Shown: piece after piece, positions 4,033 through 29,679 of the stretch | Layout of the letters: the number at the start of each line of letters is the position of its first letter | How positions within the stretch are numbered: position 1 is the stretch's first letter | From: Clostridia bacterium | GTDB taxonomy: Bacteria > Bacillota > Clostridia > UBA1212 > UBA1255 | Length of the DNA: 33,504 bases | Direction: 5' to 3' | Assembly: GCA_017620915.1 (NCBI GenBank) | Contig: JAFZSK010000065.1 | Coordinates: 1-33,504 of the forward strand | The notes under the pieces: model-generated | What the model saw: the letters and a program-made list of their open reading frames with translations, nothing else | The model's database searches: none | What the model was told of the DNA's origin: nothing | Translations under genes and position numbers: made by a program

Positions 4033-4309
4033 ATAAACAAAAACCCCGTGTGGCAGCGCATTTTGTTTATTTTTCCCGACCTTCTTCCCCATTTTTGGGA
4101 CAGTAGTCCTATCTCAAAGACCAAATTATAAACAAAAATCAGCCAGACGATGTGTTTTTGTTTAAATGTTGATCCTGATTCAGTACAGATCCGGCCCGAG
4201 AAGGCGCCCTGGATAAACAAAAACCACTTCACCCAGTGGTTTTTGTTTATTTTTCAGTAATTCGTGCAAGCCACAAGGTCCGAGAAGGCGTCCGATTTAT
4301 AAAAACGAG
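4033..4309. repeat. Hairpin-site cluster A: three 38-bp arm-core-arm sites
   Basis: This fills most of the gene-free stretch 3750-4371. The sites are 4033-4070, 4128-4165 and 4213-4250. Each has left arm ATAAACAAAA and an inverted right arm TTTTGTTTAT (last base mismatched in the second). Exactly 18 variable bases lie between: 4043-4060, 4138-4155 and 4223-4240. The third core adds six more paired bases (ACCACT/AGTGGT). Starts are 95 and 85 bp apart. GAGAAGGCGCC lies at 4198-4208 and a variant (GAGAAGGCGTC) at 4282-4292, 84 bp apart. AAAAACGAG is at 4301-4309. No protein is credible here; the 75-codon minus-strand frame at 4005-4232 only reads through the repeats. Confidence 0.85.
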
Positions 4310-4371
4310 CAATGTGCTTTGCACCGTCGGCCTCCTTGATGTTTACGATACATGTTATCCGCTCCTACCGA

Positions 4372-6132
4372 TTATTGTCGCATTGACGGAAACTGGTCAG
4401 AGACCTTGAGCGGGATCGAGTCAAGATCGATGAATACCTGGTACGTTTCCAGCAGCGTCATCTGATCGTAGTTCAGTTCCTCAACTACATCGAGATCAAA
4501 ACGTATAGTCCTGTATTTTGAGAAATCCGCCTGATCCGCGAGCTCTTTCTGGTCAAAACGCAGTTGAAAATCCAGATCGATATTAAAGATATATACGCCG
4601 GTGGTCCTCACGCCCGGAGAAGTGTCGGCAAAGAAGAAATCCTCGTCATAGATGATGTATCCCGGAAGGACTCTGACGCCGTTGACGTCAACATCCCTTG
4701 CAGCGTATGAAAAAACGCTGTCCGTTTTATTTTCCCAGATCAGCACCAGGCTGGTCGTATCCACCTCGGGATGACCGGTCTGATTAAGCCACTGTTCATA
4801 CTTGTTTTTCCACAGGCCGATGAGCCAGACGCGGAAATACTCGTTGTCTGCCAGCAATACGTCGCTTTCCCTCGGTATGTAGCGCAGAGATTCCGCCTTC
4901 TCCTCTCCCATCGGATAAGCAGTCACGCTGTACAACCAGTCTGTATTATAATCTGACGTGTCATAGATCCTGAATTTAAGATCAAGCACTGTGGGATCAG
5001 CCATACCATACTCTGACAGAAGTATAATGTTCGGATGACTGTTGGATATGACATACTTGATCTGCTGGCGTTCTCCGGGACCGATGTATGTATGCGAACC
5101 GCTCGGCAGCCAGCCAATAAAAACACCGTTCACCGCCATCCAGCTCAGGTCAATATCAGTCAGTTTATCTGTACGGTTTTCATATTCGAACTGAAGCTGA
5201 TATTGCCCGCTTTCGGTGAGCGTTACACGTTTAAGCACCAGATACGCGACATCGTCGTCAATAAGCACCTGATCCTTGACGGTCGCCTCTTTCATGCGCG
5301 TGTACGGGCTGTTTACTTCACCGGTCAATTGATTCATATATGTGAATTCGCCCCGCGCCGGGGGCTGCTCCTCGGAACGCTCAAATATCAGTTTGAACGA
5401 GGACGGGTATACAAGGGTAAGCGTATTGTCATCGAGGCTGTATTTTAATTCCGTCCGCGATGAACGATATTCCGTTTTCTCACCGATGAACAGCCTGTCA
5501 CCGTCCCACCACAAGTCTGTTTCTGTGCCGAAATCGTTATAAAAACCGGTGCCGTCAGCATTCAGTACGACGAAACAATATTTTTTTTCGGCCGCTTTCG
5601 TTAGAGCGTACAGTTCATTGTAAAACCTATGTCCGTCCGATGCGTATCCGGTGCCAAATTTAAAATACCCGGTCACAGGGGCGGTAAACGGCGTTGGCGC
5701 TTCCGTCGGTTCCGCGGTGGGCTTTTCGGTGGGCGCCGCCGTAGGAGTCGGCGTGGCTGTGGAAGGCGGCAAAGTTGGCTCCGGCGTGGCTGTGACAGGC
5801 GGCAACGTTGACTCCGGCGTGGCTGTGACAACGACCGTTAATGAAGGCTCAGACGTGGTAACTGTATCGCGTTTGGTTTTCAGATATTTCGCAGTGAGCG
5901 CCGCGACGATTCCCAGCACGGCGCAGCACATAATAATGCCGGCGGTAATAAATCCCCGGGACAATTTGCGCCGTGATCCGGTACCTCGGAGCGAGGGATT
6001 CCGGGAACCCGCGTTGCCCGCGGTTGTGCTCAACGCGCCGTTTGTGCGCGCCTCGTACCGCTTTGCCTCCGCTTCCTCAATAAGGTCACCGTCAATGCCT
6101 TGCATCGCTTTCTCAAACAACTCCGTATTCAC
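4372..6132 (-). CDS. Single-pass membrane partner of second ECF sigma factor, lipocalin-like ectodomain
   Basis: From GTG at 6132 the protein has 586 residues. GTGA overlaps the sigma stop and AGAGGGG precedes it; the longer frame from 6180 would overlap the sigma gene by 52 bp and is rejected. The cytoplasmic segment begins VNTELFEKAMQGIDGDLIEEAE, a short helix seen in clostridial sigma partners. A membrane helix (about 61-81) and a Thr/Pro linker (about 102-150) follow. Residues about 151-260 (TGYFKFGTGY, FVVLNADGTGFY, DDNTLTLVYPSSFKLIFER) resemble lipocalin-like beta-barrel domains of clostridial surface proteins. The rest looks like beta-sandwich or Ig-like sequence. Sensor or anti-sigma function is inferred from the coupling to the sigma gene; no ligand can be deduced. 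Confidence 0.7.
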   Translation of the reverse strand: MNTELFEKAMQGIDGDLIEEAEAKRYEARTNGALSTTAGNAGSRNPSLRGTGSRRKLSRGFITAGIIMCCAVLGIVAALTAKYLKTKRDTVTTSEPSLTVVVTATPESTLPPVTATPEPTLPPSTATPTPTAAPTEKPTAEPTEAPTPFTAPVTGYFKFGTGYASDGHRFYNELYALTKAAEKKYCFVVLNADGTGFYNDFGTETDLWWDGDRLFIGEKTEYRSSRTELKYSLDDNTLTLVYPSSFKLIFERSEEQPPARGEFTYMNQLTGEVNSPYTRMKEATVKDQVLIDDDVAYLVLKRVTLTESGQYQLQFEYENRTDKLTDIDLSWMAVNGVFIGWLPSGSHTYIGPGERQQIKYVISNSHPNIILLSEYGMADPTVLDLKFRIYDTSDYNTDWLYSVTAYPMGEEKAESLRYIPRESDVLLADNEYFRVWLIGLWKNKYEQWLNQTGHPEVDTTSLVLIWENKTDSVFSYAARDVDVNGVRVLPGYIIYDEDFFFADTSPGVRTTGVYIFNIDLDFQLRFDQKELADQADFSKYRTIRFDLDVVEELNYDQMTLLETYQVFIDLDSIPLKVSDQFPSMRQ

Positions 6133-6686
6133 AGCAGTCCCCTCTCTTCCAGCGCGGCGCGCAGCTTTTCTCTGAGACATTTCAGCGTACGGTACACTTT
6201 AAGTTCCGGTTCCCCCGCGGCGCCTGCGATCTCCCGCACGCTGTCATAATGGTAGTAGCGGGACATGAAAATAAACCGTTCCCGCTCCGGCAGGCTTCGG
6301 ATGAAGGCGCTGAGGAAAGCAGACAATTCTTTCGCGTCCGTTTCCTCTTCCACCGTTTTGCCGCCGTCGATACAACCGGCAAGCTCTTCCAGACTGGTCG
6401 TATACTCCGATGGTATCCGCTTCAGACGGTGCTTTTGTTTGTACCGGTCGAGCGCGGCGTTTCGTACCGCGGCGGCAATGTATGCCCTCATGTTTCGCGG
6501 CTGTTCCGGCGGGACGCGGTTCCATACAGAAAACAGGGCGTCGTTAACGCACTCTTCGCTCTCCCCCTCGTCTCCGAGAATGTTGAGGGCAATTGTGCGC
6601 AGATACGCCCCGTACTGTCCCGCGACGGCGTTGATCGCCGCCTCGTCCCGTTTATTAAACAACTCTAAAAGATCGCTGTCTGTCAT
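6129..6686 (-). CDS. ECF-type RNA polymerase sigma factor
   Basis: From ATG at 6686 the product is 185 residues. Region 2 starts at MTDSDLLELFNKRDEAAINAV and includes SEECVNDALFSVWNRVPPEQP. Region 4 follows (LPERERFIFMSRYYHYDSVREIAGAAG, then VYRTLKCLREKLRAAL). The start was chosen by alignment with the sigma factor at 3129-3749. A GTG at 6725 has a better GGAG spacing and would add 13 residues, so the start is uncertain. The region 4 helix-turn-helix (EIAGAAGEPELKVYRTLK) is intact. The gene overlaps its membrane partner as GTGA. It sits 123 bp downstream of the DUF4349 gene, and no convincing -35 element is seen in between. Confidence 0.88.
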   Translation of the reverse strand: MTDSDLLELFNKRDEAAINAVAGQYGAYLRTIALNILGDEGESEECVNDALFSVWNRVPPEQPRNMRAYIAAAVRNAALDRYKQKHRLKRIPSEYTTSLEELAGCIDGGKTVEEETDAKELSAFLSAFIRSLPERERFIFMSRYYHYDSVREIAGAAGEPELKVYRTLKCLREKLRAALEERGLL

Positions 6687-6809
6687 TATCCGCTGTTGCC
6701 CGCTGTTTTTCCGCTCCGGAAGCACATTGTCTCCGCAAGCCCTTTGCTTTTATAGACGACGGATTTTTCCGTTTTTATCATTATGTCCGCTTTATTTCTT
6801 TGCTGTGTT

Positions 6810-7817
6810 TCAACCGTTGCTCTGGATCTGACGCTGGTACTCTTCCTGTTGCCGCCGCGCTGCCTCCGCACGGGCCGCTTCCGCCCGCTCCGCCGCTTTT
6901 TTGTTGCTCTTTTTGACGATGGCGCGGAGGATGAATATTGCCACCACCACGAACGCCGCAAAGAGCAGGAGCCCCGGCAGCGCGCCCACGAACCAGACCG
7001 TGAAGTCCTTCCAGCCGTCAACGAACGCCGCCCAGCCGTTCCGGAACGAATTGGCGATCCGCGTGCCGAAGGACTCCTCTTCGGTCTGCGTGTAGACCTC
7101 GACCTCGTTCAGCTTCAGATAGATCGTCGAATACGCGACCTTGCTGTCAATAACCTTCAGCCGCGCCGTATACGCCTCGATATCCGCGATAGTGTCGTAA
7201 AGTTTGTCCTGGATGTCAATGATCTGGCTGACGTCCTCCGCCTTCTCCAGCATCTCCGTGAGTGCCGTCTTCTTGCTGTTCAGCGTATCGAGCCGCGCCT
7301 GGATATCGTAATACGTTTCCGTGGCGTCGGTGACTCTCTCCTGCGACGAATAAATGTTGATCCGTCCGCCCACTTCCTTCAGGAACTCGCTGAGGTTTTC
7401 CTGCGGGATCCGGATCTCAAACTCCGCGGATCTGAGGGTCTTGTTGTACTCGAGACGCTCGCCGCCGCTGATCTTCGAATTGCTGATGTAGCCGCCGGCC
7501 TTGGAGACCTGCTCGAGAATGTCGTTTTTTGCCTCATCAAAATTGAGCGTTTCCGCCGCGATGTCAACTTCCTTGATGAGCTTCTCGTTGACCTTCGCCT
7601 CGGAGCCTTCCTGCGCCGACTGGGGCTGCTCGAATTCGCTCACATTGCCGTGGGAGAAGCCCGGCTCGTTGTTGTAGCCGCTGTCACTCAAATGGTCATA
7701 ATAACCATGTTTAGCACAGGAGCAAAACGCAAATACCAATATGACCGCCATCAATATTGCTGCCGGTACTCTGATCCAATTTCTTCCTGCTTCGTGCCTG
7801 TTCAAATGTCCGTTCAT
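6810..7817 (-). CDS. DUF4349 domain lipoprotein
   Basis: The 335-residue protein has a lipoprotein-like signal (about 15-34, ending AFCSC with cysteine 34 as likely lipid site). A DUF4349 domain follows: VNEKLIKEVDIAAETLNFDEAKNDI, then GGYISNSK, then a coiled-coil segment (YYDIQARLDTLNSKKTALTEMLEKAEDVSQIIDIQDKL). A second membrane helix lies at about 271-297, and the tail is a charged, Ala/Arg-rich cytoplasmic helix. GTGAGG precedes the ATG. DUF4349 proteins are envelope proteins of unknown role. The gene begins 50 bp after the ABC permease stop and probably belongs to that operon, suggesting a partner of the exporter. Confidence 0.85.
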   Translation of the reverse strand: MNGHLNRHEAGRNWIRVPAAILMAVILVFAFCSCAKHGYYDHLSDSGYNNEPGFSHGNVSEFEQPQSAQEGSEAKVNEKLIKEVDIAAETLNFDEAKNDILEQVSKAGGYISNSKISGGERLEYNKTLRSAEFEIRIPQENLSEFLKEVGGRINIYSSQERVTDATETYYDIQARLDTLNSKKTALTEMLEKAEDVSQIIDIQDKLYDTIADIEAYTARLKVIDSKVAYSTIYLKLNEVEVYTQTEEESFGTRIANSFRNGWAAFVDGWKDFTVWFVGALPGLLLFAAFVVVAIFILRAIVKKSNKKAAERAEAARAEAARRQQEEYQRQIQSNG

Positions 7818-7867
7818 GCTGATACCTCACTTTCTGAAAGTCAATTCCTGATCGTCAACATATCTAT

Positions 7868-9439
7868 TTACGTTATATCTTTCCGGCAGAACGCGTCATA
7901 CGCGCACCAGACCAGCGCCGTGAGCAGCAGGATCACGTAGATCCACGAGAACAGCGGCGTCACCGCGGCATCGGCGCCGTATTCGCTGTTGAACACCTCG
8001 AAGATCGACGGGACGCCGGTGATCCGGTGCAGATTGGCCAGGTTGTGTATCGGAAGCAGCGCGGCAATATACGGCCGCCCGCCGCCCAGCAGCATTATCA
8101 GTTCGGCCAGCAGCCCGCCGAAGATGCCCAGCAGCGGCAATGTCACCGACACCGCGGTATTGTGCGTGAGCGAGGACAACGCCAGCGCCAGCGCCGCAAA
8201 CAGCCCGATCGCCAGGCCGTCCAGCAGCATGGACAATATTGCCGCCGCCAGATACGGCATCCCGTGCGCCGCCCCGAAAGCATAATATACCACCGTGCCG
8301 AAATTCCGGAACCCGAACAGCATCCCGGTAAACAGCAGCGAGAGCAGATAACTGAACAGCAGCAGCGCGGTCTGGACCGTAAGCAGCGCCAGCCCCTTCG
8401 CCGCGAAGATCTTGCCCCGGCGCACCGGCGCGATGATCAGCGATTTGATCGAACTGTTGTTCATCTCGGAAGAGATCGCCGAACCGGCCAGCATAATGAC
8501 CAGCGCGATGACAATATACGTGCCCGTGTTGCACAACTGGTTCATGATCGACCGGTTCTGGACCGGACTGTTGGCCCGCTCCGCGTCGCCGATCACCGTG
8601 CCGTGCTTCAGCGCGTATTCCTGGAGCGCAATCTCCTTCTCCAGCTTTTCCGCGGAGAAACTGACGCCCTGCTGATCCGGTTGATCCTCCGTCTGCGCGT
8701 TCAGCGCCATTCTGTTGCTGACGTAATTGTCCGCCTGCGCCAGGATGTAGTCCGACGCGCTCACGTCGACCTTGTCCGCGTATTTGTCCAGCCAGCCGTA
8801 CACTTCTTTGTATATCGCATACGAGCCGTCCGCCGTGCCGGAACTCTCCAGAAGCTCCTGACGCCGGTCCAGCATCTCACGGAACGAAGCGCCCAGGAAT
8901 ACATATTCCAGCTGATCGAGTTCAGCATTCAGCATATTCGTATCCGCGACGATCCGATGTTCCTCCGCCTTCAGCGCTTCCATCGTCTCCACCGGTGCAT
9001 TATTATAATAAAACGTGTCGTAGATTCGGTCGTTCATGGTCTCGAAGATCGAATCGTACGAATAATTCCGGCGGGTGATTGCCTCCGCGGCGGTTCTGTA
9101 AAGGCGGGCCAGCAGCTGGGCGCGCGTCTGATCGGTCAGGTTGTCCAGGTACTGATCCGCGTATTCCGCAAACGAGTCTTTATCGGTCTCCGGATCCAGC
9201 GTCTGCAATACCGCCCGGAGTCTGACCGCTTCTGCCTCCGCTGCCTCGGCATCTTTCTTGAATTCATCCGACACATGGCCGTAGTCCTGCCAGTAGTAAG
9301 AAGTAAACGATTCGACGCCTTTGTAGGTCAACGCACAGCCGCCGATAAACACGAACATAAGGATCATCGCCACAAGGATGGAGACCTTGCGTACGGTCTT
9401 GCCCATTTCGTTCTGATACAGCAAAAACACTTTACGCAA
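7868..9439 (-). CDS. ABC-2 type transporter permease
   Basis: The 523-residue protein is best started at TTG (9437-9439). It overlaps the ATPase stop by 8 bp, and GGAGGAGGG sits seven bases upstream, whereas the open frame further up is only antisense-free overlap with the ATPase gene. The start reads LRKVFLLYQNEMGKTVRKVS (first residue made as Met), a typical ABC-2 entry, followed by a membrane helix (ILVAMILMFVFIGGCAL). A roughly 250-residue extracytoplasmic region with coiled-coil character follows. Five or so C-terminal helices come next, including the conserved stretch SSEMNNSSIKSLIIAPVRRG before the second helix. It forms the membrane channel with the ATPase next to it. The substrate is unknown; export of a peptide, lipid or drug is typical of the family. 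Confidence 0.85.
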   Translation of the reverse strand: MRKVFLLYQNEMGKTVRKVSILVAMILMFVFIGGCALTYKGVESFTSYYWQDYGHVSDEFKKDAEAAEAEAVRLRAVLQTLDPETDKDSFAEYADQYLDNLTDQTRAQLLARLYRTAAEAITRRNYSYDSIFETMNDRIYDTFYYNNAPVETMEALKAEEHRIVADTNMLNAELDQLEYVFLGASFREMLDRRQELLESSGTADGSYAIYKEVYGWLDKYADKVDVSASDYILAQADNYVSNRMALNAQTEDQPDQQGVSFSAEKLEKEIALQEYALKHGTVIGDAERANSPVQNRSIMNQLCNTGTYIVIALVIMLAGSAISSEMNNSSIKSLIIAPVRRGKIFAAKGLALLTVQTALLLFSYLLSLLFTGMLFGFRNFGTVVYYAFGAAHGMPYLAAAILSMLLDGLAIGLFAALALALSSLTHNTAVSVTLPLLGIFGGLLAELIMLLGGGRPYIAALLPIHNLANLHRITGVPSIFEVFNSEYGADAAVTPLFSWIYVILLLTALVWCAYDAFCRKDIT

Positions 9440-10364
9440 TGATGTTCCCTCCTCCCGTGAGATTGATGAACGCGTCTTCCAGCGTGTTTTCTTCGCGGCT
9501 GACGGTGTAAACGCCGATCCCCGCGGTGAGGAGTTTGTACGTGAGCTCCGGCAGGCGCGCCCCTTCCGTCTGCACCGTGATCCGCTCGAGGCCGTTCCGG
9601 GGGTCAATGCGCTCCGCTGCCAGCCCAAGTCCGTTCAGGAGGGCAATTGCCGCCGCCGCGTCCGATACGCCGTAATCGTACCGCTCGCCGGTACCGAGGG
9701 TCTTCAGCTCGTCGACCCGTTTCTCGCCGATGATCACGCCGTTGTCAATGATCGCCACCCGGTCGCACATCTGCTCCATTTCGGAGAGCAGATGGCTGGA
9801 GACGAATACCGCGGTGTTCTCCTTCGCGGCAGTCTCGCGTATGATCGTGCGCAGTTCTTTGATGCCCGCGGGGTCAAGCCCGTTGGTGGGCTCGTCCAGG
9901 ATCAGCAGCTTCGGCTTGTGCAGTATCCCCTGCGCCAGCCCGATGCGCTGCTTCATGCCCAGCGAGTACTTTTTGACTTTCTCTCCCGCCCGGTTCTCCA
10001 TGCCGACGAGCCGGACCACTTCGCTGATCCGTTCGTCCGTGACCCCGGGATGCAGCCGGCCGTACATTTTCAGATTGACGATGCCGGACAGGTTTTTGTA
10101 CAGTTCGGGGCTTTCGACGATGCCGCCGACGCATTGCATTGCCGCCTCGTACTCTTTCGAAAGCGAGTGGCCGCAGATGGTGATCTCGCCCGAGTCGGGG
10201 AACACGAAGCCCATGATCATTTTAATTGTGGTGGTCTTGCCCGCGCCGTTCGGACCAAGGAACCCGAACACTTCACCGGCGTACACTTCGAAGGACACGT
10301 CTCTGATGACGTGATGGTTCCGGAACGATTTGTTCAGCTGTTTTACTTCAAGGACGGTCTCCAT
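9432..10364 (-). CDS. ABC transporter ATP-binding protein
   Basis: From ATG at 10364 (perfect AGGAGGTGA upstream) the product is 310 residues. Visible motifs are Walker A GPNGAGKT (37-44), signature YSLGMKQRIGLAQG, Walker B LLILDEPTNGLDP and switch histidine SSHLL. The C-terminal 70 residues match the accessory region of bacitracin/lantibiotic-type ATPases, ending LEDAFINLTGG. The protein energises the ABC-2 permease encoded immediately downstream. It lies only 4 bp after a small membrane-protein gene, so the three are transcribed together from the promoter at 10838-10866. Self-protection or peptide export is possible but not shown. Confidence 0.92.
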   Translation of the reverse strand: METVLEVKQLNKSFRNHHVIRDVSFEVYAGEVFGFLGPNGAGKTTTIKMIMGFVFPDSGEITICGHSLSKEYEAAMQCVGGIVESPELYKNLSGIVNLKMYGRLHPGVTDERISEVVRLVGMENRAGEKVKKYSLGMKQRIGLAQGILHKPKLLILDEPTNGLDPAGIKELRTIIRETAAKENTAVFVSSHLLSEMEQMCDRVAIIDNGVIIGEKRVDELKTLGTGERYDYGVSDAAAAIALLNGLGLAAERIDPRNGLERITVQTEGARLPELTYKLLTAGIGVYTVSREENTLEDAFINLTGGGNIIA

Positions 10365-10368
10365 CGCG

Positions 10369-10797
10369 TCACCTCCTCTCAGCGCCCGTGTCGCAGAGGG
10401 CGAGCTCATTGTCTGCGCCGTAATACGACGTCGAATTATACTTGCAGAAGACGACGCGCCAGGAACCGCCCTCCCGCTTCAGCTCGAAATAATCGCCGGA
10501 GGCGGTGTAGTTGCTGATATAGCGCGCGTTGACGGCAATGCGGTCCAGGCTCTGGTAACTCACGTCATATTCGTAGTAGTTGCGGCTTCCGGCTTCGGCG
10601 TTGACATTGCCCGCGGCATCCACCAGGTGCGTCCGGTTGTAATCGTCAATTACCCTCGCGGCGCTCTTCTCTATCCGCGATTCTTCTATGCGCATGAAGA
10701 CCACAAAAACCACCGCCGCCACGGCCAGCGCCAGCAACAGCAGTGCGCCCCGGTTGACTTTCTGCCAGAATCCGCGTTGATTGATCTGCGTGTCCAT
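10369..10797 (-). CDS. Small single-pass membrane protein of unknown function
   Basis: The 142-residue protein has an N-terminal basic segment (MDTQINQRGFWQKVNRG), one membrane helix (about 18-36, ALLLLALAVAAVVFVVFM), then an extracytoplasmic domain of about 100 residues. This domain is rich in Tyr and aromatic residues (YYEYDVSYQSLDRI, YFELKREGGSWRVVFC). Its end resembles the strands of NTF2-like folds, but the match is too weak to name. AAAGGG precedes ATG. It is the first gene of the ABC exporter operon and ends 4 bp before the ATPase start, so an accessory role for the transporter is likely but inferred. Confidence 0.7.
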   Translation of the reverse strand: MDTQINQRGFWQKVNRGALLLLALAVAAVVFVVFMRIEESRIEKSAARVIDDYNRTHLVDAAGNVNAEAGSRNYYEYDVSYQSLDRIAVNARYISNYTASGDYFELKREGGSWRVVFCKYNSTSYYGADNELALCDTGAERR

Positions 10798-10866: not shown

Positions 10867-10896
10867 AAATCGACCGCCGGTCAAAAAGCGTCCGTG

Positions 10897-19132: not shown

Positions 19133-20905
19133 TCAAAATGGCTGCGTTGTCAACGAAAATGTCGCAAACAATATGCTGTTTCCGCTGATCTCCGCCTTGT
19201 GCGTTTCGTGTATTGAATAGTTGTTGTCCGTAAAGCTGCATTCGCGGACTACGATTTCCTTGCCCACCGCAAACGTGAAGCCTTTCAGATCCAATGAAAC
19301 CGGCTCGGCGCGGCGATTGACCGCGGACAAATAAAAGTGATCGCCGTGATCGGTCAATAAAAAATCCACCGCATCCGTATCCGCCTCGCATTCAATGACC
19401 CGCCCGCCTTTATGCCCGGCCATAAGTCTGAACAGTTCTCCGGAACTTTCGAGCCGGCTCCCGGCGGGAGTTACGGTTATCATCCCCTCATTGACCGGCA
19501 TAAAGAATCGGGCTTCACGGATATGATATTTCTCCGAATTGCGGGCAAAGAACTGCAGCTGCAGCGCGTTGGAGATCAACAGCGCGTTGTTGGAGCCGCT
19601 GCCCCAGCAGAAATTCCATTCGTCCACGTTGACCCGGCACCGGTCCCACACCGGCGCGAGCAATTCGTTTTTAAAGAACTCCAGCCCTTCGTCCACGTCG
19701 TGCAGATACGTCCGCTTCATTCGTTCGCAGGCCGTAATTCCGTCCGGCGCGGCCGTCGGTCCCGTTCCGTAATACCAGTGGTAAGAAACATATTCAAAAC
19801 CGCAGTCCAGGTTTTTCATGAAGTCAACGCTCCAGGCGCGCAGACCCGGATCCGAGACCAGGCAGATAACGGCATTGATACCGGGGTCAACGGTCCGCAT
19901 AGCATTGACGAGCTCGCTCGTCCGTTTTGCGGCCAGCCCGCCGTCAACGCGGTACGGCCCCCCCGAATAGTACGGCTCGTTACCGATATACCAGGTCTTT
20001 ATATTGAAAGCATCAAACCCCAGCGCATTCCGGATGGCGCCGTATTCAGTGTCAATGCCGCCGTTACAATACTCCACGAGCCTTCGGGCGTCTTCTCCGT
20101 CGGATCGCAGCAGACTGACGGTAAATTCCGGCTCCGCTCCGATCTCCCGGCAGAGCAGAATGAATTCATTTATTCCCACCTCTACACAGTCCTGGTGCCA
20201 GGAATCTCTGAGCATAAACAGCTTGCTCCGGCCGTCGACCGGTTTCCGGAACTCGGGCAATTTTAGACTTTCTTTCCACTCAAAATGATCGGCATAGCAG
20301 CCGCCCGGAAAGCGGACAGAGGGAACGTGCAGTGCCCGGAGGTTTTCGATGACGTCCCGCCGCATGCCGTAATAATTGTCCGTAGGGATAAGTGACGCTT
20401 CGTAAACCGCAACCTCGCCTTTTACCGAGATCGTAAATATTCCGGAACCGCTGTCCCGGCCGGCAAACACGAATGCGAGCTTGTGGAACGCTTTTCCGTC
20501 CGCCTCGACTTCAAAGGCACGTTCCTCTCCCTGGATCCCGAAAGAGATCACGGCTTTTTTTGATATTGCCCGCACCCAGACCGCGGCTTCGTATTCCCTG
20601 CCGGTCCCGGGCGCGATCATGTCTGAGGTCTGGGTCATTGACCCGCTGCGCAAAATGACGAAATTGCTCCGGCACAGGCTTTCTTCCGGGCGGTCGATCA
20701 CCCGGACAAAATCGGTGCACTCCCAGCCGTCAACGCCCTCCGTTCCCATAAACAGCTTGCGGTTGTTCAGCATCTGCGCGCAGATCCCGCCGCAAAAGCC
20801 TTTGCGCGTCACTTCGGTGTTGATGCCGAACAGCCCCGGCTCAAAGACGAAACTGTTCCGGTCGGTATGCGGTGTTATTGTTGCGGTTGTATTCGTCTTG
20901 TCCAT
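19133..20905 (-). CDS. GH51-type alpha-L-arabinofuranosidase
   Basis: The 590-residue protein has no signal peptide, so it is cytosolic and should act on imported arabino-oligosaccharides. Key motifs are VPSVRFPGGCYADHFEW (start of the catalytic barrel), WYIGNEPYY (acid/base Glu310) and VNVDEWNF (nucleophile Glu429), as in clan GH-A family 51. The N-terminal region (about 20-180) includes a carbohydrate-binding-like beta-sandwich inserted before the barrel, and a C-terminal beta-sandwich ends the protein. Start at 20905 is the only in-frame Met before the family begins. It is followed within 53 bp by the CE2 esterase gene. A promoter with a dyad lies at 20943-20974. Confidence 0.85.
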   Translation of the reverse strand: MDKTNTTATITPHTDRNSFVFEPGLFGINTEVTRKGFCGGICAQMLNNRKLFMGTEGVDGWECTDFVRVIDRPEESLCRSNFVILRSGSMTQTSDMIAPGTGREYEAAVWVRAISKKAVISFGIQGEERAFEVEADGKAFHKLAFVFAGRDSGSGIFTISVKGEVAVYEASLIPTDNYYGMRRDVIENLRALHVPSVRFPGGCYADHFEWKESLKLPEFRKPVDGRSKLFMLRDSWHQDCVEVGINEFILLCREIGAEPEFTVSLLRSDGEDARRLVEYCNGGIDTEYGAIRNALGFDAFNIKTWYIGNEPYYSGGPYRVDGGLAAKRTSELVNAMRTVDPGINAVICLVSDPGLRAWSVDFMKNLDCGFEYVSYHWYYGTGPTAAPDGITACERMKRTYLHDVDEGLEFFKNELLAPVWDRCRVNVDEWNFCWGSGSNNALLISNALQLQFFARNSEKYHIREARFFMPVNEGMITVTPAGSRLESSGELFRLMAGHKGGRVIECEADTDAVDFLLTDHGDHFYLSAVNRRAEPVSLDLKGFTFAVGKEIVVRECSFTDNNYSIHETHKAEISGNSILFATFSLTTQPF

Positions 20906-21007: not shown

Positions 21008-21277
21008 GGCGCCTTCTCGGGAAACTATATTTCATGAAAAATAAACAAAAACCGGATGTAGTATCAGTTTTTGTTTATCCAGGGCGCCTTCTAGAGGCCT
21101 CGGAAGGGGCTCAAGGGGCTCCACCGAGGCCAAAAATAAACAAAAATATTGTCTACCCTCGGATTTTGTTTATTTAATAAATGCCAAACCCGCCCAAATG
21201 AGCAACAATCTAAACAAAAGCCGCATGTACTCATGCTTTTTGTTTAGATTTCCTGAAATCAGTCCTAAAAAACGAGG
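21008..21277. repeat. Hairpin-site cluster B: three 38-bp arm-core-arm sites
   Basis: This occupies the gene-free stretch 20906-21355. The sites are 21041-21078, 21136-21173 and 21210-21247. Arms are ATAAACAAAA/TTTTGTTTAT (third CTAAACAAAA/TTTTGTTTAG), each with an 18-base core: 21051-21068, 21146-21163 and 21220-21237. Starts are 95 and 74 bp apart. GGCGCCTTCTC is at 21008-21018 and GGCGCCTTCT at 21083-21092 (75 bp apart). AAAAAACGAGG is at 21267-21277. A 26-bp block at 21067-21092 is the exact reverse complement of 4199-4224 in cluster A, so A and B share ancestry or a common binding factor. Confidence 0.85.
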
Positions 21278-23284: not shown

Positions 23285-24514
23285 TCAATCCACCACCGCG
23301 CCGAGCTCGCGCAAACGGGCCCGGAGCGCATTGACATCGAGGGAGTGCGTATCGGCGCCGGTCCTGCGGCAAAGGGCCATCGCGACACCGGCAGCTTGAC
23401 CCAGACAGGCGCAGATAGGCATGATGCGCACCGCCGAATGCGCCTCGTGGGTCGCCGACAGGCAGCGTCCGGCCACCAGCAGGTTGTCGTACTCTTTAGG
23501 GAGCAGCGACCGGTACGGGATCCGGTAATACTCGCCGCCGTTGAAGTAGTACAGCGTAGTGCCGGAGCCCTCAGGATTGTGGATATCGATCTCGTAATTG
23601 CCCACCGCGACGGTATCCTCGAAATCGACCATATTCTTGATCTCCGCCGCAGTGAGCACGTGCTCGCCCCTCAGTTTGCGGCTCTCCCGCACGCCGATGT
23701 GGCTTGCCACCGCGATCAGTTCGGCGTTTTTGCACGCTTCCGAGTGCTCCTTCAAAAAGCGGAACATCTCGTACACCTGCCGGCGGCCTTCAAGCTCCGC
23801 GTCGGAGAGCGCAAACGTGTCGGTGGGATCATGTTTTATCACCCGCGTCGTGTTAAGGTGCAGGATGTTCTTGCCCAGGCCCGTGAACACCAGAAGGTTC
23901 TCCCGCGGGTTTCTGAGCTTGCCCTCCGACTGGAGCCGTGTATAAAGGGTGTTCAGCCGCAGTCGCTCCTTAAGGAATAGGTCAATATCCACATTCGCCA
24001 TGCGGAAGCAGGTGGTCAACGGCTGGCAGAGCGAATCCGTCTCCCGCCCCAGCTGGTAGTCGCACCCTGCCAGGAACATCAGTTCTCCGTCCCCGGAGGC
24101 GTCAATATAGTTGTCCGCCTCGAAGGTCTGTACTCCGGATCTGGTTGCCGCCTTCACGCTCACGAGCCGCCGCCCGTTGCGCCCGATCTCGAACACCGCG
24201 GTGTGAAACAGCACCTGAACGCCGGCTTCGCACACCATATCGTCAAATACGAATTTGTAGAATTCCCAGGAGCTTTCGCCGTATTTTGCGAATCTTTCGC
24301 GCATTTCGGTAAAGATCCCGGCGCACAACAGCCGCCGCTCGCTGTCCTTCGTAAAGTACAGCATGAACGGATACACGAGGCTAGCGCTCATTGCCCCGCC
24401 CAGCTGGCCGGTCTTTTCAATGAGCAGTACAGTCAAGCCTTCCCGCGCGGCCGATACCGCCGCAGCAACCCCGGATATGCCTCCGCCTACAACTATTAAA
24501 TCATATTTTTTCAT
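23285..24514 (-). CDS. FAD-dependent oxidoreductase (PF12831-like)
   Basis: The 409-residue protein starts with the FAD-binding motif YDLIVVGGGISGVAAAVSAAREGLTVLLIEK, then GQLGGAMSASLVYPF. FEADNYIDASGDGELMFLAGC and the C-terminal LLVAGRCLSATHEAHSAVRIMPICACLGQAAGVA complete the pattern of a PF12831 family member. These flavoproteins are often found in carbohydrate-use loci, where the substrate is usually unknown. It starts 10 bp after the stop of the beta-sandwich surface protein gene, so it is part of the same operon. No signal peptide is visible, so it is cytosolic. Confidence 0.88.
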   Translation of the reverse strand: MKKYDLIVVGGGISGVAAAVSAAREGLTVLLIEKTGQLGGAMSASLVYPFMLYFTKDSERRLLCAGIFTEMRERFAKYGESSWEFYKFVFDDMVCEAGVQVLFHTAVFEIGRNGRRLVSVKAATRSGVQTFEADNYIDASGDGELMFLAGCDYQLGRETDSLCQPLTTCFRMANVDIDLFLKERLRLNTLYTRLQSEGKLRNPRENLLVFTGLGKNILHLNTTRVIKHDPTDTFALSDAELEGRRQVYEMFRFLKEHSEACKNAELIAVASHIGVRESRKLRGEHVLTAAEIKNMVDFEDTVAVGNYEIDIHNPEGSGTTLYYFNGGEYYRIPYRSLLPKEYDNLLVAGRCLSATHEAHSAVRIMPICACLGQAAGVAMALCRRTGADTHSLDVNALRARLRELGAVVD

Positions 24515-24524
24515 ATGATCTGGA

Positions 24525-25715
24525 TCACTTCTTTTTGCCTTTGGCGGAACTGACGATTATTATTGCCACCGCGGCCACGGCGACAACGCCGCACGCCACG
24601 TACAGCCAGATATAATTATTGCCCTTTTTCTGCTGTTTCTCGGAAGGAACCGCTGCATTGTTCGTAGGAGCCGCCGTAGCCTTGTTCCCTGCGTTTTCAG
24701 TGGGCTCCGCGGCTTTTTCCGTGGCTTTTTCCGTGGGTTTTGAAGTGGGCGCCTGAGTAGGTGCCGGTGTGGCAGTCTTTTTCTTGGCCAAATAGGTCAG
24801 CTTGATATTGTCCAGCATGGTAGTGTTTTCGCCTCTGTTGCCCACACCGACGGCACTGTAATCCGCGCTGATGCGCGCGTTGTCCAGTTCCATGAGCTGC
24901 GTGCCGGCGGCATCCTTGATGACCGCGTGCTTATAATACATGACGTCGCTGTCGCCTTCGTCGCCGTCGGGGTACATGCCGGGTTCGCCGCCGTATTCAA
25001 CGATGGCAAACAGTGCGTCATTTATATAAATATTCACGATGCCCTTGCCGTCGTCTTCGAATCTGAAATTATTCATTCCGCTCGAGTTGAATCCCTCGGG
25101 ATACGCGAGTTCAACGCCCTTGGAGTGTACGAACAATCCGTCCTCCACCCGCGTCTTAACGGATACGCCGATGGTGGAATTGCTCTTGTTGAGAAACACT
25201 CTGATCCCGGAGCCGCCGATGCTGGAGAAGCCCTCTCCCTTGCCGCCGTTTTCACCGTACCAGTCCCATTCGAACATATCGAAAGACTGCTGTGTGCCGG
25301 CATTTTTCGGGTTCGTGACCCGGTACGACGACGGATCGATCATTCTGACGAATATACCGCCCAGCGTGGGGCTGCTGCAGGTGAAATCATAGTCCAGGGA
25401 GAATGTGTATGCTCCGGTAAAGCAGTCGTACGCCACATCGACATCGGTGTGGAAGCCGGCGTATTTGGACAGTTCCGCCACGCCGTCATTGTTAACAACG
25501 CCGTCGCCGCCCGCGGCTCTGATTATCTGCATATTAAAAGTGTCGGTCAGTTCCGTGTCCTCTACATTTGTCCCTTCATCTCCGTCAAATACGTAGGAGA
25601 TCACTTTCTCTTCGTATTCGTCCGCTTCTTCCGCCGCAAACGGCACCGTCAGCAGGGCGAGCAGGAGCGTCATGCAAAGCAGCAACGCCGCCGGTTTGAA
25701 CAGTTTTTTCATCAT
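24525..25715 (-). CDS. Surface beta-sandwich protein with Thr/Pro linker and C-terminal membrane helix
   Basis: The 396-residue protein has a signal peptide (about 1-28). The roughly 285-residue body is beta-rich: ISYVFDGDEGTNVEDTELTD, FSLDYDFTCSSPTLGGIFVRM, GIVNIYINDALFAIVEYGG, MLDNIKLTYL. This resembles concanavalin A-like/LamG or DUF1080-like folds, but no catalytic motif is visible. A Pro/Thr/Lys-rich linker (about 313-364) and a membrane helix with basic GKKK tail end it. GGAGG lies 8 bp before ATG (25715). It follows the GH71/GH99-like gene by 13 bp, so it is probably a polysaccharide-binding partner of that enzyme; the binding target is inferred. Confidence 0.75.
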   Translation of the reverse strand: MMKKLFKPAALLLCMTLLLALLTVPFAAEEADEYEEKVISYVFDGDEGTNVEDTELTDTFNMQIIRAAGGDGVVNNDGVAELSKYAGFHTDVDVAYDCFTGAYTFSLDYDFTCSSPTLGGIFVRMIDPSSYRVTNPKNAGTQQSFDMFEWDWYGENGGKGEGFSSIGGSGIRVFLNKSNSTIGVSVKTRVEDGLFVHSKGVELAYPEGFNSSGMNNFRFEDDGKGIVNIYINDALFAIVEYGGEPGMYPDGDEGDSDVMYYKHAVIKDAAGTQLMELDNARISADYSAVGVGNRGENTTMLDNIKLTYLAKKKTATPAPTQAPTSKPTEKATEKAAEPTENAGNKATAAPTNNAAVPSEKQQKKGNNYIWLYVACGVVAVAAVAIIIVSSAKGKKK

Positions 25716-25728
25716 ATCAGTTTCCTCC

Positions 25729-27756
25729 TTATTGTTCTGATATATTGTTTCTGTTTTTTCTGTTAATTATTACTACGATCACCGCCGCGGCCGCTAAAAG
25801 CAGAGTGGTCGCGCCAACGACTATAACGGGTACCGGCACGCCTGCCTTTTCAGGAGCGTCCGGCAATTCGGGCAATTTTACAGCGGTATCGCGTATCGCG
25901 CTCGAAATGTTCCCGCCGTCTTTAATATACCTGTAATTGAACCGGGAATTCGGCGCGGCGTCGCCCAGATCCATGAATTCCATTATTTCGCCGGAAACGG
26001 TGGAATTGTCCGCCCATTTGAAGTCGAAATTGTCCCGGCCCGCCAGATCGATGAGTGCGCTTTCCACCCGCACTAACATCCGGTTTCCGGCGACGGAATA
26101 ATCCGCCCAGCCTTTACTGTGCCCGCTCCAGTCCGTTCCCGCAAACTCTTCCACGGATAATTTACCGCCGGCGGCGTCAATACTGCGGCCGATCACGAAA
26201 TCGTACCCCTGCCAGCCGCTGTAGTAGTACTGGTCGCTGTCAAAGAACAGATTCATCCAGTTCTGCGTGCCTTCGGCGGTGACAATATCGTCCGCGCATT
26301 CCGCCAGGAAATACGTGTATTTATCGGTCTTCGACACCTTCACGCACAGTATGTCGTTGCGGCCGCTGTCATTGACGATCTTTTCGCCGGAGATCGTTTT
26401 GCTGCTCCGGTGTGCCGTGTCGCCCGCCGTGTCGTAATATACGGGTCCCACCGCGTCGAACTCACTGAGATCTCCCGCTAAATTGACGTCGATGCTGCCC
26501 GTGCCCTTATCCACGGCCCTGACGCCCTTGAAGCGGCGGATGTTCTCCACCATCTGGTAATAATAATTGTCCCGGAACAGCTGGGAGATCGGTTCCACGT
26601 CCCGGCTGAACTCGGCGCTGAAGGCGTCAACGTAATTGCTGCTGCACTGCCAGTCGTCCTCGATAATAGTGTAGCTGTCGGATATGAGCTGCCCGATGCC
26701 CGCGTTCTGCCAGCGCCCGAAAGTGAACTCGTTCCAGCCGGTGATCATCACCAGCGGCGGATCGAGCTCGAACACCCGGTTCCACTGTTCCTGGAACGCG
26801 AGTCCGTCGCCGATAGTGTCCAGTCCGTACCCGAAATCCCCCACACCGCGGGAAGGCTGCTTCCCGTCGTGGAAACTGCGTCCCCGGGATGAATTTGAAT
26901 GGAATCCGGCACTGACAACGATCTGCTCCACCTCTCCCGCGGCGTTTCGGCCCGGTTCCTGGGGGTATTCGGCGATCCAGGGCCACTTAAGTATTCCGTC
27001 GCCGGTAAAGCTGTTGAACGCCCAGGAGCGGCGGAAGGTGAAATATTCCTGCAGTTCCGTGCTGACTTTGGACTTGTTCAAGTTGCCGAGGATCAGCGGC
27101 TTCCCTTCCCACATGAACCACAGATCCGCGTATTCGGGTTTGGAATAGGCGTCTTTATATATGGTTTTGATGTGATTGGCAAGAGTATCTTCTTCGTCTC
27201 CGTTATGGAATACAATTTGCGGCGTATTGCCGCCCTCGTCCCGCACCTTGCGCCAGGTCTTCAGCAGCAGTTTCCAGCAGTTTTCGAAGAGGCCGCCGTT
27301 GTTCGTGGTATCGAGGAACACAAAGTCAATGCCGGCATCCGTCAGCAGCTGGGCATGTTTCCGGTATATCCACTCGTCCAGGTCGGTCCGGTAATAGCCG
27401 AAATACGGCCGTCCCCAGGTGTGGAAACCGTCCAGCGGCGCCATTTCCCATACCGCCTCCACACCGCCGTCCAGGTAAGTCTGGGTGGTGTCGTAAATCG
27501 TCGCGGCCTCATGGCTCATGAACAGAAAATAGAATATGCCCACGTATTTACCGTTGCGCGGGTCTCCGGCTTCGGCGTTGTCCGGAAACACCCGGCCCAG
27601 TTCGTCGGTGCCGGCCCAGGTGTCGGACAATATATCCGCCGGGCCCGTATCGACTTTCCCGGTCCCGGCATCGCCTTGCGCGCAGACGCTTACGATCCCC
27701 AGGCAGAGGCAAAGGGTCAATGCCAGCGACAATATAGTAATTATCTGTTTTTTCAT
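25729..27756 (-). CDS. Secreted GH71/GH99-like glycoside hydrolase, membrane-anchored
   Basis: From ATG at 27756 (AGGAGG eight bases upstream) the product is 675 residues, with a signal peptide (about 1-27). The catalytic part resembles GH71/GH99-like enzymes: YVGIFYFLFM, HTWGRPYFGYYRTDLDEWIYRKHAQLL, GIDFVFLDTTN (Asp149) and ITGWNEFTFGRW (Glu343, in the place where family 99 has NEWHEG). From about residue 450 a CBM9- or DOMON-like beta-sandwich follows (YTYFLAECADDIV, QNWMNLFFDSDQYY, YDFVIGRS). A C-terminal membrane helix (VPVIVVGATTLLLAAAAVIVVI) anchors it. It is the second gene of the operon, 13 bp after the solute-binding protein. Substrate unknown; alpha-mannan or glucan is possible for the clan. 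Confidence 0.7.
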   Translation of the reverse strand: MKKQIITILSLALTLCLCLGIVSVCAQGDAGTGKVDTGPADILSDTWAGTDELGRVFPDNAEAGDPRNGKYVGIFYFLFMSHEAATIYDTTQTYLDGGVEAVWEMAPLDGFHTWGRPYFGYYRTDLDEWIYRKHAQLLTDAGIDFVFLDTTNNGGLFENCWKLLLKTWRKVRDEGGNTPQIVFHNGDEEDTLANHIKTIYKDAYSKPEYADLWFMWEGKPLILGNLNKSKVSTELQEYFTFRRSWAFNSFTGDGILKWPWIAEYPQEPGRNAAGEVEQIVVSAGFHSNSSRGRSFHDGKQPSRGVGDFGYGLDTIGDGLAFQEQWNRVFELDPPLVMITGWNEFTFGRWQNAGIGQLISDSYTIIEDDWQCSSNYVDAFSAEFSRDVEPISQLFRDNYYYQMVENIRRFKGVRAVDKGTGSIDVNLAGDLSEFDAVGPVYYDTAGDTAHRSSKTISGEKIVNDSGRNDILCVKVSKTDKYTYFLAECADDIVTAEGTQNWMNLFFDSDQYYYSGWQGYDFVIGRSIDAAGGKLSVEEFAGTDWSGHSKGWADYSVAGNRMLVRVESALIDLAGRDNFDFKWADNSTVSGEIMEFMDLGDAAPNSRFNYRYIKDGGNISSAIRDTAVKLPELPDAPEKAGVPVPVIVVGATTLLLAAAAVIVVIINRKNRNNISEQ

Positions 27757-27769
27757 TGTCCCCACCTCC

Positions 27770-29167
27770 TCATTCTCTGGTATAGATCGGCCTTTTGCCG
27801 TCGATCACGGCATTGGCGTCTTCCTGAAAGACCGCCAGTTTTTTGAAGAAACGGTCAATGCCCTTGCCTCCGCTGAACTCCCGCACCATCACGGCCGAAA
27901 ACACCGTGCGCATGCGGATATTCTTGTTGTAGATCTCGTTGTCCCCGGAGAGCGCCGCGGTGAAGTCGTCCCGGAGCCCGTCGTCAACGCCTATAAGCGC
28001 CCGTTCCGCATTGTCCCCCGCGAACACCCCGGTGCGCCAGAACGTCTCGCCCCACATATCCCGGTTCGCGGGAATACCGCCGTAATACGAGATCAGTATT
28101 TTCTGACCTTCCGCCGTGAGCGAAAACGCGGCCAGTTTTCCGGCCATATTCTGCTTTGCGGAGGTGACCGGAACCGCGAAGCCTTTTATGAAATCGGTAT
28201 CCGCGATACCGGTGCGGTTTCCGGCGTCCGATTTGGGCAGCGGCAGCAGTACCAGCCGGTTTTCGGCCAGCAGTTCATCTACCTGTTTTCCCGGGTTTAT
28301 GATGGTCTTTTTCTCGGTTTCAAACGAATAGTTGTTGCGCCCTGGCTCGCAGGCGAAGGTGAAGCTCATGGCGCAGATCCGGCTGGAACTGTCCAGCACC
28401 GGACTGTACGCGTAATTATGTGTGTACATGGAATACATCCGCTCCAGCGCCTGCCCCGCGCTGCCCGTTCTCGAAAGATCGAAGCGGCCGTCCGTCAGAT
28501 ACGACCCGGCCAGGAGGTCGCAGTAGTATTGCCACACGTAGTTCATGTAATAGGGCATGTAAACGCCGGCATACGCTTTGCCGTCGCGCCGTCCGGTCAA
28601 TGCCTCCGCCACCGCTTCGAATCCGCTGAGGCTCCAGTCATTATCCGGAAGCGTCACTCCCGCGTCGCCGAACACCCCCGCGTCGGCAATTATTACGGCG
28701 TGGTCATAATTGAACGGTATCATCCGGAGCGTCCCGCTTTCGCTGATCTTAGCGGTATTCCGCGCGCCGCCGGCCAGTTTTTCTTCCGCGATCCCTGCCG
28801 CTTCGAGGTATTGCCCCGCGTCTGTCAGGCTGCTTGCCGCATACAGCAGCATATCGTCCGCGCCGAGCAGCATGCAGTCGATCCCCGCCGTTTCTTTCGG
28901 CAGTTCGCTGTAATACTTTATGCTGACTTTGATTCCCGGTTCGGTCTTGTTAAAGGCGTCAATATACTCCCCGAGGCACCTTTCCAGCGCCTGCTGCCCC
29001 GCGGCCGAGGTCTGATCCTTCTTTACCGCGAGGACGATCGTATCGGCAGGGATAATTTCTTTCCCGGAGCTTTCCTGTTTCGCGCAGCCCCCCGAAAAGG
29101 TCGCCGCGAAGGCCAGCATCGCGGTAAGGATCAGCAATGCTGCAGCACGAACCGATCTGTTTTTCAT
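27770..29167 (-). CDS. Extracellular solute-binding lipoprotein (family 1, sugar type)
   Basis: From ATG at 29167 (AAGGAG upstream) the product is 465 residues with a lipoprotein signal ending FSGGC (cysteine 28). It has the two-lobe layout of family 1 solute-binding proteins: IVLAVKKDQTSAAGQQALERCLGEYIDAFNKTEPGIKVSIKY, then WSLSGFEAVAEAL, LVLLPLPKSD, GFAVPVTSAKQNMAGKLAAFSL. Such proteins deliver oligosaccharides to an ABC importer. No importer permease or ATPase gene is visible in the window, so the partner must be encoded elsewhere, or the protein serves as a sensor or surface binder. It is the first gene of the operon, with a palindromic operator at its promoter. Confidence 0.88.
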   Translation of the reverse strand: MKNRSVRAAALLILTAMLAFAATFSGGCAKQESSGKEIIPADTIVLAVKKDQTSAAGQQALERCLGEYIDAFNKTEPGIKVSIKYYSELPKETAGIDCMLLGADDMLLYAASSLTDAGQYLEAAGIAEEKLAGGARNTAKISESGTLRMIPFNYDHAVIIADAGVFGDAGVTLPDNDWSLSGFEAVAEALTGRRDGKAYAGVYMPYYMNYVWQYYCDLLAGSYLTDGRFDLSRTGSAGQALERMYSMYTHNYAYSPVLDSSSRICAMSFTFACEPGRNNYSFETEKKTIINPGKQVDELLAENRLVLLPLPKSDAGNRTGIADTDFIKGFAVPVTSAKQNMAGKLAAFSLTAEGQKILISYYGGIPANRDMWGETFWRTGVFAGDNAERALIGVDDGLRDDFTAALSGDNEIYNKNIRMRTVFSAVMVREFSGGKGIDRFFKKLAVFQEDANAVIDGKRPIYTRE

Positions 29168-29220
29168 GCTTTTATGCTCCTTCCTGCTTCCTGTCAACAG
29201 ATAATTCCTGATCGCCCTTG

Positions 29221-29250
29221 ATTTTAACATATGTTAATAATAGTACACAA
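29221..29250 (-). promoter_or_regulatory. Promoter of the SBP/GH71-99 operon with 14-bp palindromic operator
   Basis: TTGTGT (29245-29250), 18 bp, TAAAAT (29221-29226) on the minus strand. A perfect palindrome TTAACATATGTTAA (29224-29237) overlaps the -10 box, a classic repressor position. The regulator gene is not in the window. Confidence 0.55.
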
Positions 29251-29309
29251 GGACAATTTAAAACACTCTGTTACTAATTTGCTACGAAATCCGGCCGCAC
29301 GACGGACGG

Positions 29310-29679
29310 CGCTCGCTCATTTTTAGTTTGCAGGCGCCTTCTCTTGTTTTTGGCAGAACGCCAAAACCCGCAGATGTCATAGCAAATCAATAAATAATAA
29401 AAAGTGCTATGACGAGGGTTCCTTCTTTTGAACGGGCAAAAGAACGGTATGACCTTTCAAATCATAGCAAAATCGCAAAATGGTCGGATTGCTATGATGA
29501 TTCTGGCCTTAACAGTTCGATACACATCGTTATTTAATAAGATACAGGTGAATTGACAGAAATAGAAGCCGCCTTATGCCAAAAAACGAGGACAACAAGC
29601 CTGATATGTCATAGCAAAAATAAAATAACGCCCGTTTGCTATGATGTCGGCACTTTTTTGATCTGAAAATGAGCGAGCG
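29310..29679. repeat. Hairpin-site cluster C bounded by 14-bp inverted repeats
   Basis: This fills the gene-free stretch 29251-29755. CGCTCGCTCATTTT (29310-29323) and AAAATGAGCGAGCG (29666-29679) are perfect inverted repeats bounding the cluster. Inside are three 38-bp sites: 29376-29413, 29461-29498 and 29608-29645. Left arms are GTCATAGCAA, ATCATAGCAA and GTCATAGCAA; right arms are GTGCTATGAC, TTGCTATGAT and TTGCTATGAT (one mismatch in the first and third sites). Each core is 18 bases: 29386-29403, 29471-29488 and 29618-29635. Starts are 85 and 147 bp apart. GGCGCCTTCTC is at 29333-29343 and AAAAAACGAGG at 29581-29591, both shared with clusters A and B although the arms differ. The layout resembles a small non-autonomous mobile element, but no transposase is seen. 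Confidence 0.85.

Follow-up and report, generated by a model that had tools for sequence, protein, structure and literature searches.

Miniature inverted-repeat transposable elements (MITEs) are short, non-coding dispersed elements, and the res sites of resolvases and the end arrays of Tn7 and Mu are single sites at element ends, each with a number of subsites, inverted or repeated, that keep to the helical register. REPINs, which are based on repetitive extragenic palindromic (REP) sequences and linked to REP-associated tyrosine transposases (RAYTs), consist of two inverted conserved ends around a variable spacer. RAYT and REP have been described as an enzyme gene bordered by its own repeat, together with dispersed and orphan copies of that repeat, and as an enzyme and a repeat that diverge together (PMC2817692). 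Here we analyse a 33,504-nucleotide contig of a Clostridia bacterium (assembly GCA_017620915.1, contig JAFZSK010000065.1; hereafter the window, meaning this whole stretch), which carries nine sites made of two inverted 10-bp arms around an 18-bp core and arranged in phased arrays. We interpret these sites, with a probability of about 0.7, as the DNA half of a repeat-plus-enzyme system whose other half would be a nuclease-like protein of ~270 amino acids (aa).

The nine sites form three arrays of three and have no strand of their own. Array 1 (4033..4070, 4128..4165 and 4213..4250) and array 2 (21041..21078, 21136..21173 and 21210..21247) belong to arm family A (ATAAACAAAA-N18-TTTTGTTTAT), and array 3 (29376..29413, 29461..29498 and 29608..29645) to arm family B (GTCATAGCAA-N18-TTGCTATGAC). 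Re-reading the sequence confirmed all nine where an earlier note on this DNA had placed them, each with 10-bp arms and an 18-bp core, at successive spacings of 95 and 85 bp in array 1, 95 and 74 bp in array 2, and 85 and 147 bp in array 3. A single arm base is unmatched in three sites (outer in 4128-4165 and 29608-29645, inner in 29376-29413), and the third site of array 2 has an outer change in both arms that leaves them mutually matching (CTAAACAAAA / TTTTGTTTAG). A separate motif, M1 (GGCGCCTTCTC), lies between sites 2 and 3 of array 1 (4198..4208, minus strand) and precedes both array 2 (21008..21018, plus strand) and array 3 (29333..29343, plus strand).

The genome of the window (G000; 2.57 Mb in 121 contigs, the window being contig C88) contains 30 exact family A sites (TAAACAAAA-type; pattern AAACAAAA-N18-TTTTGTTT) and 28 exact family B sites (TCATAGCA-N20-TGCTATGA), against 0 for either pattern written backward, which excludes a chance origin for both. 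We scanned 57 other genomes: G003, which belongs to the same genus, has six matches to the A pattern, G022 and G047 have one each, both resembling an ordinary hairpin, and the B pattern is absent from all 57. The core lengths are not scattered around 18: with up to two mismatches allowed, 35 of the 43 A sites in G000 have a core of exactly 18 bp and 31 of the 32 B sites keep the expected length. Across 64 spacings between neighbouring sites of five arm families (A, B, C, D and H, of which B and D partly overlap), we observe R=0.897 at 10.55 bp (10.55-10.6) with a phase near zero, that is, whole helical turns from site centre to site centre; the 25 distinct values give R=0.84 (p ~2e-8), and one spacing, 214.5, is off the rule. 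The two tests by which the earlier note could have been refuted, on core length and on spacing, did not go against it. The values that it lists are real, and the list was incomplete, as spacings of 53, 63, 117 and 137 bp also occur. Its statement that the cores are unrelated in sequence needs amending as well: inner core information per position is 0.21 bits in A (n=34), 0.53 in B and 1.01 in H, with 1.93-1.97 in the arms, so that the A core is close to a plain spacer, the B cores have a central A-tract in common and the H core has a conserved CTCGTTTGAG.

Two further features of the lattice were seen. In arrays with a 53-bp period (L057 3240-3600, L308 and L301), half-sites alternate every 26-27 bp, a lattice of ~2.5 turns in which the gap between sites resembles a second core. 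Four G003 arrays with an 84-bp period, equal to 28 codons (L069, L072, L074 and L078), stay open as reading frames of repeated peptides, which is likely a chance effect of the period, as other periods break the frame.

The lead to a partner came from three array-adjacent genes that encode paralogues without a Pfam match above the cut-off, and the search for a nearby gene family that had been proposed in the earlier note succeeded, yielding a nuclease-like family that adjoins the arrays. Within the genus there are six copies in G000 and one to three matches in each of G001-G004 and G006, and none was found in G005. In G000, the genes are flanked by the inverted-repeat arms ATAAACAAAA (contig C49), TGGTATAAA (C55), TTGTGGCCTCC (C59), GGCGGTATCCC together with AGGCCGAAA (C69) and GTCTAAAAAA (C103), and elsewhere by AAATGGGACAAAA (G001), AAAACGCCCAG (G002), AGTTCTTAA (G003) and AGTAGTATAA (G004), one G004 gene (L295) having no flanking inverted repeats. 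At least three same-arm sites are present at 10 of the 13 genus loci tested, and the arms differ between loci. Searches at the level of the class gave matches in 28 of 196 genomes, and those in family f31 in 30 of 60 genera, some of these matches being the C-terminal domain alone inside larger proteins; genes of families f31 and f47 again adjoin arrays, with new arms.

Defining a regular array as at least three same-arm sites with at least two spacings of 40-110 bp, we found one at 20 of 40 gene loci and in 10 of 339 control windows (Fisher 2.6e-15); the controls comprise unselected contigs of G000, relatives, and contigs from many phyla that M1 had brought up. Leaving out the three lead loci gives 18 of 37, and a stricter exact-arm test gives 18 of 40 gene loci and 7 of 339 controls; three of the ten control hits are themselves arrays of these arm families (L244, L253, L165). 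The 40 loci are those counted out of 42 chosen, L347 and L351 having failed the motif filter (KSE and PDF required), and their list excludes loci with the C-terminal part alone (L313-L330, L363-L370), duplicates of earlier loci (L303, L304, L331, L332) and the broken G006 gene (L293); matches of the class and f31 searches that were not fetched as loci are outside these counts. Arrays border the gene on both sides at 5 of the 40 loci by the exact-arm test and at 11 by a looser one. Median periods by locus are 52-54 bp (8 loci), 63-64.5 (3), 74.5-75 (3), 81-85.5 (5) and 94 (1), mostly near 53, 63, 75 and 84 bp and hence five to eight helical turns; they give R=0.83 at 10.3-10.5 bp and still 0.81 at 10.0, so that the exact period is loosely fixed.

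The link between gene and arm extends to dispersed copies. Every one of the six G000 paralogues has its arm repeated on other contigs (36 sites in 16 loci, 21 in 13, 8-15 in 3-5, 5 in 2, 4-7 in 1-4 and 4 in 2, by paralogue; reversed-arm controls 0-1), and arrays 1 and 2 of the window match the arm of the paralogue on contig C49 (L028, 1780-2676, minus strand). The arm of the G001 gene has one dispersed site. Sites of the ATAAACAAAA and GTCTAAAAAA types occur also in G003, in whose 70% complete assembly no paralogue for either was found. The 551 called G000 proteins, which represent ~28% of the genome, include one other conspicuous multi-copy DNA-binding family, which is sigma-factor-like and has four copies.

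The probable partner family is unannotated and has a PD-(D/E)XK-like C-terminus. Thirteen of the 15 genus matches, the two pieces of the one broken G006 gene being left out, align over 268 model positions (alignment A2). In the C-terminal half, SKSE and PDFT are invariant in all 13, followed by a nearly invariant E-H; set beside the residue order of PD-(D/E)XK nucleases, the E of SKSE and the D of PDFT are constant in 13/13, and E-H stands in the place of (D/E)XK. The family has no Pfam or NCBIfam match of weight, no PDB sequence match and weak matches to phage families. Candidate-defence models of PADLOC match all 13 members with their nuclease tail; the likeness to the PDC-S68 candidate defence proteins lies in this C-terminal nuclease part, but those models are ~1200 positions long and the match is limited to the last ~120. 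For pairs of members with different arms, the N-terminal/nuclease values are 55/91, 60/85, 55/69, 50/58 and 34/41, and for a same-arm pair 86/97, a sequence pattern compatible with an N-terminus that might read the arms. Searches of mobile elements returned seven partial matches in plasmids, C-terminal only, and three in phages, one covering 88% of the query, without a same-arm pair around it. Relatives on viral contigs (eight loci) were rejected, all being C-terminal tails of helicase-like proteins, and two further scans for the protein gave none.

The two arm families of the window belong to a wider class. About ten arm families of the same geometry are present in G000, and other species have others. 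Arrays have two flanking motifs in common, M1 and M2 (AAAATGAGC); M1 has 72 copies in G000 (backward control 11) and 64 in G003 (backward control 8), and the 13 other genomes of the same search have 0 to 5 each. Loci with M1 led to the arm families CGTCTAGCAAA, AACATAGCAAA, TGGATAATT and TGGTATAAA in G000 and CGTCTAACAAAA and GGATAAAA in G003, with GTAAGACAAA, GTCAGCCACAA, GCGGTATCCC and others found later. A search blind to arm sequence recovered same-arm site pairs in G001 (21 pairs, 15 of them on a single contig) as well as in loci selected from G000 and G003. Seven genomes of other genera gave one pair between them, and neither the 26-87 kb sampled from each of G002, G004, G005 and G006 nor local shuffles gave any; arrays in G002, G004 and G006 were found later, beside nuclease-like genes. 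The main G001 array has unrelated arms (TGGCACACAAA), which were not used in finding it, at spacings of 74, 74, 74, 85, 73 and 73 bp. Pairs of M1 were found in 84 stretches across 84,980 genomes and in two stretches of viral contigs, and among these M2 near M1 is limited to RUG12823 (12 loci, including the twin of L123) and RUG12588 (L123). Six other M1-pair matches (L099, L124, L128, L171, L177 and L178) look like coding sequence or simple repeats and were discarded, and the remaining ones were tested for M2 alone.

With genes called by codon usage, in loci mostly chosen for holding A, B or M1, 151 sites in 62 clusters all fall outside called genes, except one. In the 42 regions with both flanks known, 25 gene pairs are divergent, 16 codirectional and 1 convergent, the informative contrast being 25 to 1, because codirectional regions are upstream of one gene by definition. 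Sites lie more than 95 bp from gene starts, except for two (-61 and 65), and down to 25 bp from gene ends. On 41 of the 65 sides that face a gene start, a sigma-A-like promoter separates the array from the gene; the reverse strand has one on 5 of 65, and shuffled sequence in 2.5%. M1 has mixed orientations relative to genes.

Comparison of close species, in which G003 loci were picked for M1 and G000 loci for arrays and which is not a frequency, shows different arm families upstream of the same gene. A metallo-beta-lactamase-like lipoprotein gene (named by eye) is preceded by B sites in G000, by a GGATAAAA site in G003 and, some 500 bp off, by a GGGACAAA site in G001, and an ABC-transporter gene (by eye) by GTCAGCCACAA sites in G000 and an A site in G003. 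At a further gene (L031/L067), all three sites have TAAGACAA arms in G000 and GGGACAAA arms in G003. In the syntenic pair L043/L077, the arms are nearly conserved and the core of the first site has diverged, and one G006 orthologue (argC-like) has no array.

Within the window, array 1 lies upstream of a sigma-factor-like gene (3129..3749, minus strand) and array 2 of an arabinofuranosidase-like gene (19133..20905, minus strand) that has homologues in seven of seven genus genomes, weak in G005. Array 3 lies in a divergent pair of lipoprotein-like genes (27770..29167, minus strand, and 29756..31303, plus strand). All four were named by eye, as was the C-terminal part of a large repeated surface-protein-like gene at 32131-33504, which has near-identical repeats of ~70 aa and extends past the end of the window.

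Many arrays in G000 and G004 have at their outer ends a module of ~55 bp, END (GAGCGAGCGCCGTCGGTCGCGCGGC...CTGCGAAATCGGGAGCAGAGCC; e.g., L046 5063, L052 5288, L041 6723 and L272 4), and some have it at both ends. The distance from its end to the promoter that follows is fixed: of 45 END-like matches, 15 have the best -35 hexamer beginning 15-17 bp further on, and 23 have it within 5-25 bp (random 14%). Five G004 contigs (C30, C65, C113, C118 and C141; L268, L272, L274, L276 and L278) begin within the same END sequence and have flanks that are unique, which looks like the collapse, during assembly, of a multi-copy element whose copies are near-identical. Two repeats resembling insertion sequence (IS) ends, TTACACACAAAATTGGACTTGACTC and GTTATGTCCGTATAATGGTGTAAATTT, are found in arrays or next to them where several contigs end, and some of them sit in an arm (L021 end, L026 start, L029 start, L055 and L057; L027, L039, L048 and L056). 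IS elements are reported to target REPs (PMC1525189).

Several observations weigh against a repeat-plus-enzyme system. Half of the gene loci (20/40) have no regular array, and in the loosest flank test 28 of 40 loci are positive, as are 79 of 339 controls, a background of 23%; the presence of the protein motifs at 40/40 loci is wholly by construction, the loci having been picked by those motifs. No partner was found in G000 for arm families B, C, D and H, which leaves array 3 of the window an orphan, and for the genes of G002, G003, G004 and G006, the limited sequence sampled from these genomes showed no dispersed copies of the arms. As to the N-terminal part as a reader of arms, it is less conserved than the nuclease in all six compared pairs, the same-arm pair included. 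In unselected G000 contigs, the arm-blind search found one array pair in 246 kb, and several G000 loci were fetched for carrying A, B or M1, which inflates the A and G counts. Periodicity is weaker when distinct spacings only are used (R=0.59 at 10.55 for 34 values and R=0.57 at 10.5 for 52), arm conservation is partly by construction, at most one arm mismatch being permitted in the bit counts, and visual inspection of three arrays whose two ends are present showed no target-site duplication.

The arrays might alternatively be host regulatory elements, operators of paralogous transcription or chromatin proteins that act from upstream, with the nuclease genes near by happenstance. The excess of divergent over convergent regions, the scarcity of sites within 95 bp of a listed gene start and the position of promoters between array and gene all fit such a role, which we nevertheless consider unlikely: the distances from array to promoter show no phasing (R 0.07-0.23 at 10.5-10.6 bp), so that contact with the polymerase from a fixed face is unsupported, the flanked genes form no coherent set by eye, one and the same gene can be preceded by different arm families in closely related species, and in many genera it is a single gene family at which the arrays gather. 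A function of the nuclease in defence or restriction, as a solitary enzyme for which the arrays would be decoys or self-marks and not a means of spread, draws on the resemblance of its C-terminal part to the nuclease tails of candidate defence proteins and of helicase-like proteins. The many matches per genome (13 in G087 and 8 in G055, partly C-terminal only) and the different arm families upstream of the same gene fit selfish families better, and make this explanation distinctly improbable.

That these are ordinary REP/BIME repeats (bacterial interspersed mosaic elements, BIMEs) spread by RAYT, an HUH transposase, was considered, since the repeats are dispersed, intergenic, palindromic and mosaic and a RAYT-like gene is present in G000, and was rejected as highly improbable. 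The G000 RAYT gene is bordered, by eye, by GGGGACAGACC repeats and not by an array arm, Y1_Tnp matches (one each in G000 and G001, none in G003 and G005, two to three in G002, G004 and G006) do not track the abundance of arrays, and the RAYT paper does not contain the word 'helical' and describes inter-REP segments of varying length (PMC2817692). Scattered GGGGACAGACC-type repeats are seen by eye around the RAYT-like genes of both G000 (L222, contig C76) and G001 (L221, C19), and these repeats and the RAYT probably make up a REP/RAYT system of their own, separate from the arrays, in both genomes. Every site is also an inverted repeat able to fold, as RNA hairpins acting as terminators, attenuators or mRNA-end structures would be; yet the arrays lie upstream of promoters with one convergent region in 42, M1 has no consistent orientation, the spacing tracks the 10.55 bp of B-DNA and an Rfam scan of the window gave zero matches reaching the gathering score, which leaves such an origin a very small probability.

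We therefore return to the repeat-plus-enzyme system, which is proposed because the organisation resembles that of RAYT and REP while the enzyme and the site differ and the genome's own RAYT has other repeats. Like REP/BIME and RAYT, the arrays are dispersed, intergenic and mosaic, the enzyme gene is bordered by cognate repeats, and the cognate repeat is dispersed in the same genome, as seen for all six G000 paralogues. Unlike RAYT, the enzyme is PD-(D/E)XK-like and not HUH, with no match to Y1 HUH (PF01797) among the 13 members scanned; unlike the REP hairpin, each site is built of two half-sites set apart by a fixed-length core, and single arms are, by reading, not palindromic; and the arrays are spaced in whole helical turns upstream of promoters. 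REPINs differ in that the arms here are varied and phased in arrays, and res sites and Tn7 or Mu ends in that these arrays are dispersed, with no recombinase found at them. Prokaryotic MITEs (PMC10969869) offer a further comparison: the arrays are likewise short, non-coding and dispersed and would depend on an enzyme in trans, and they differ in their several internal phased sites and in that terminal repeats with target duplications are not established here. In contrast to a CRISPR array, the spacings vary by helical steps and the intervals share motifs; no search for cas genes was made.

In such a system, each site of 36-42 bp would comprise two inverted half-sites around the fixed-length core, read by a dimer of the ~270-aa protein, and whole-turn spacing would align the dimers on one face of the DNA. 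Each of the several paralogues in a genome would have its own arm, a gene beside an array of that arm being an autonomous copy, and scattered same-arm arrays, in G000 mostly upstream of promoters, would be non-autonomous copies, as with REP/BIME and RAYT. The nuclease would most likely act on array DNA, and repair of the break would copy or exchange arrays, which would explain why closely related species have different arm families before the same gene. Of all this, the geometry, the phasing, the location upstream, the tie between gene and array and the agreement of arms are observed; binding, the dimer, the part of the protein that reads the arm, cutting and spread are inferred. What the earlier note had envisaged, paired half-sites bound on one helix face and tied to a repeated, possibly mobile family, survives in this proposal, with a core that would go nearly unread in A; its candidates for the binder, a recombinase, partition or silencing protein, are not supported, as the linked family has PD-(D/E)XK-like motifs instead. 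Bound sites and relics of a mobile element, which it had set apart, may both be true. The fuller picture, to which we give somewhat less than even odds, is that Clostridia-like bacteria have a new class of system for spreading repeats, with one nuclease paralogue per palindrome type, half-sites read on B-DNA, alignment on one face, cutting and templated repair that copy arrays upstream, replacement of arm families at promoters, and END placed ~16 bp before the -35 hexamer.

In the open-licence PMC literature, we found nothing on such arrays or such a protein, which, given that scope, is weak evidence of novelty. If the proposal is correct, a repeat-plus-enzyme system with an enzyme and a site unrelated to those of REP/RAYT would exist in at least three bacterial families (f1, f31 and f47) and would seed upstream regions with phased protein-binding arrays. 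The paralogues and their arms form a natural library of protein-arm pairs with which the code by which an unstudied nuclease-like family reads DNA can be tested directly, and the system may have effects on how genes are regulated in bacteria of the rumen and gut.

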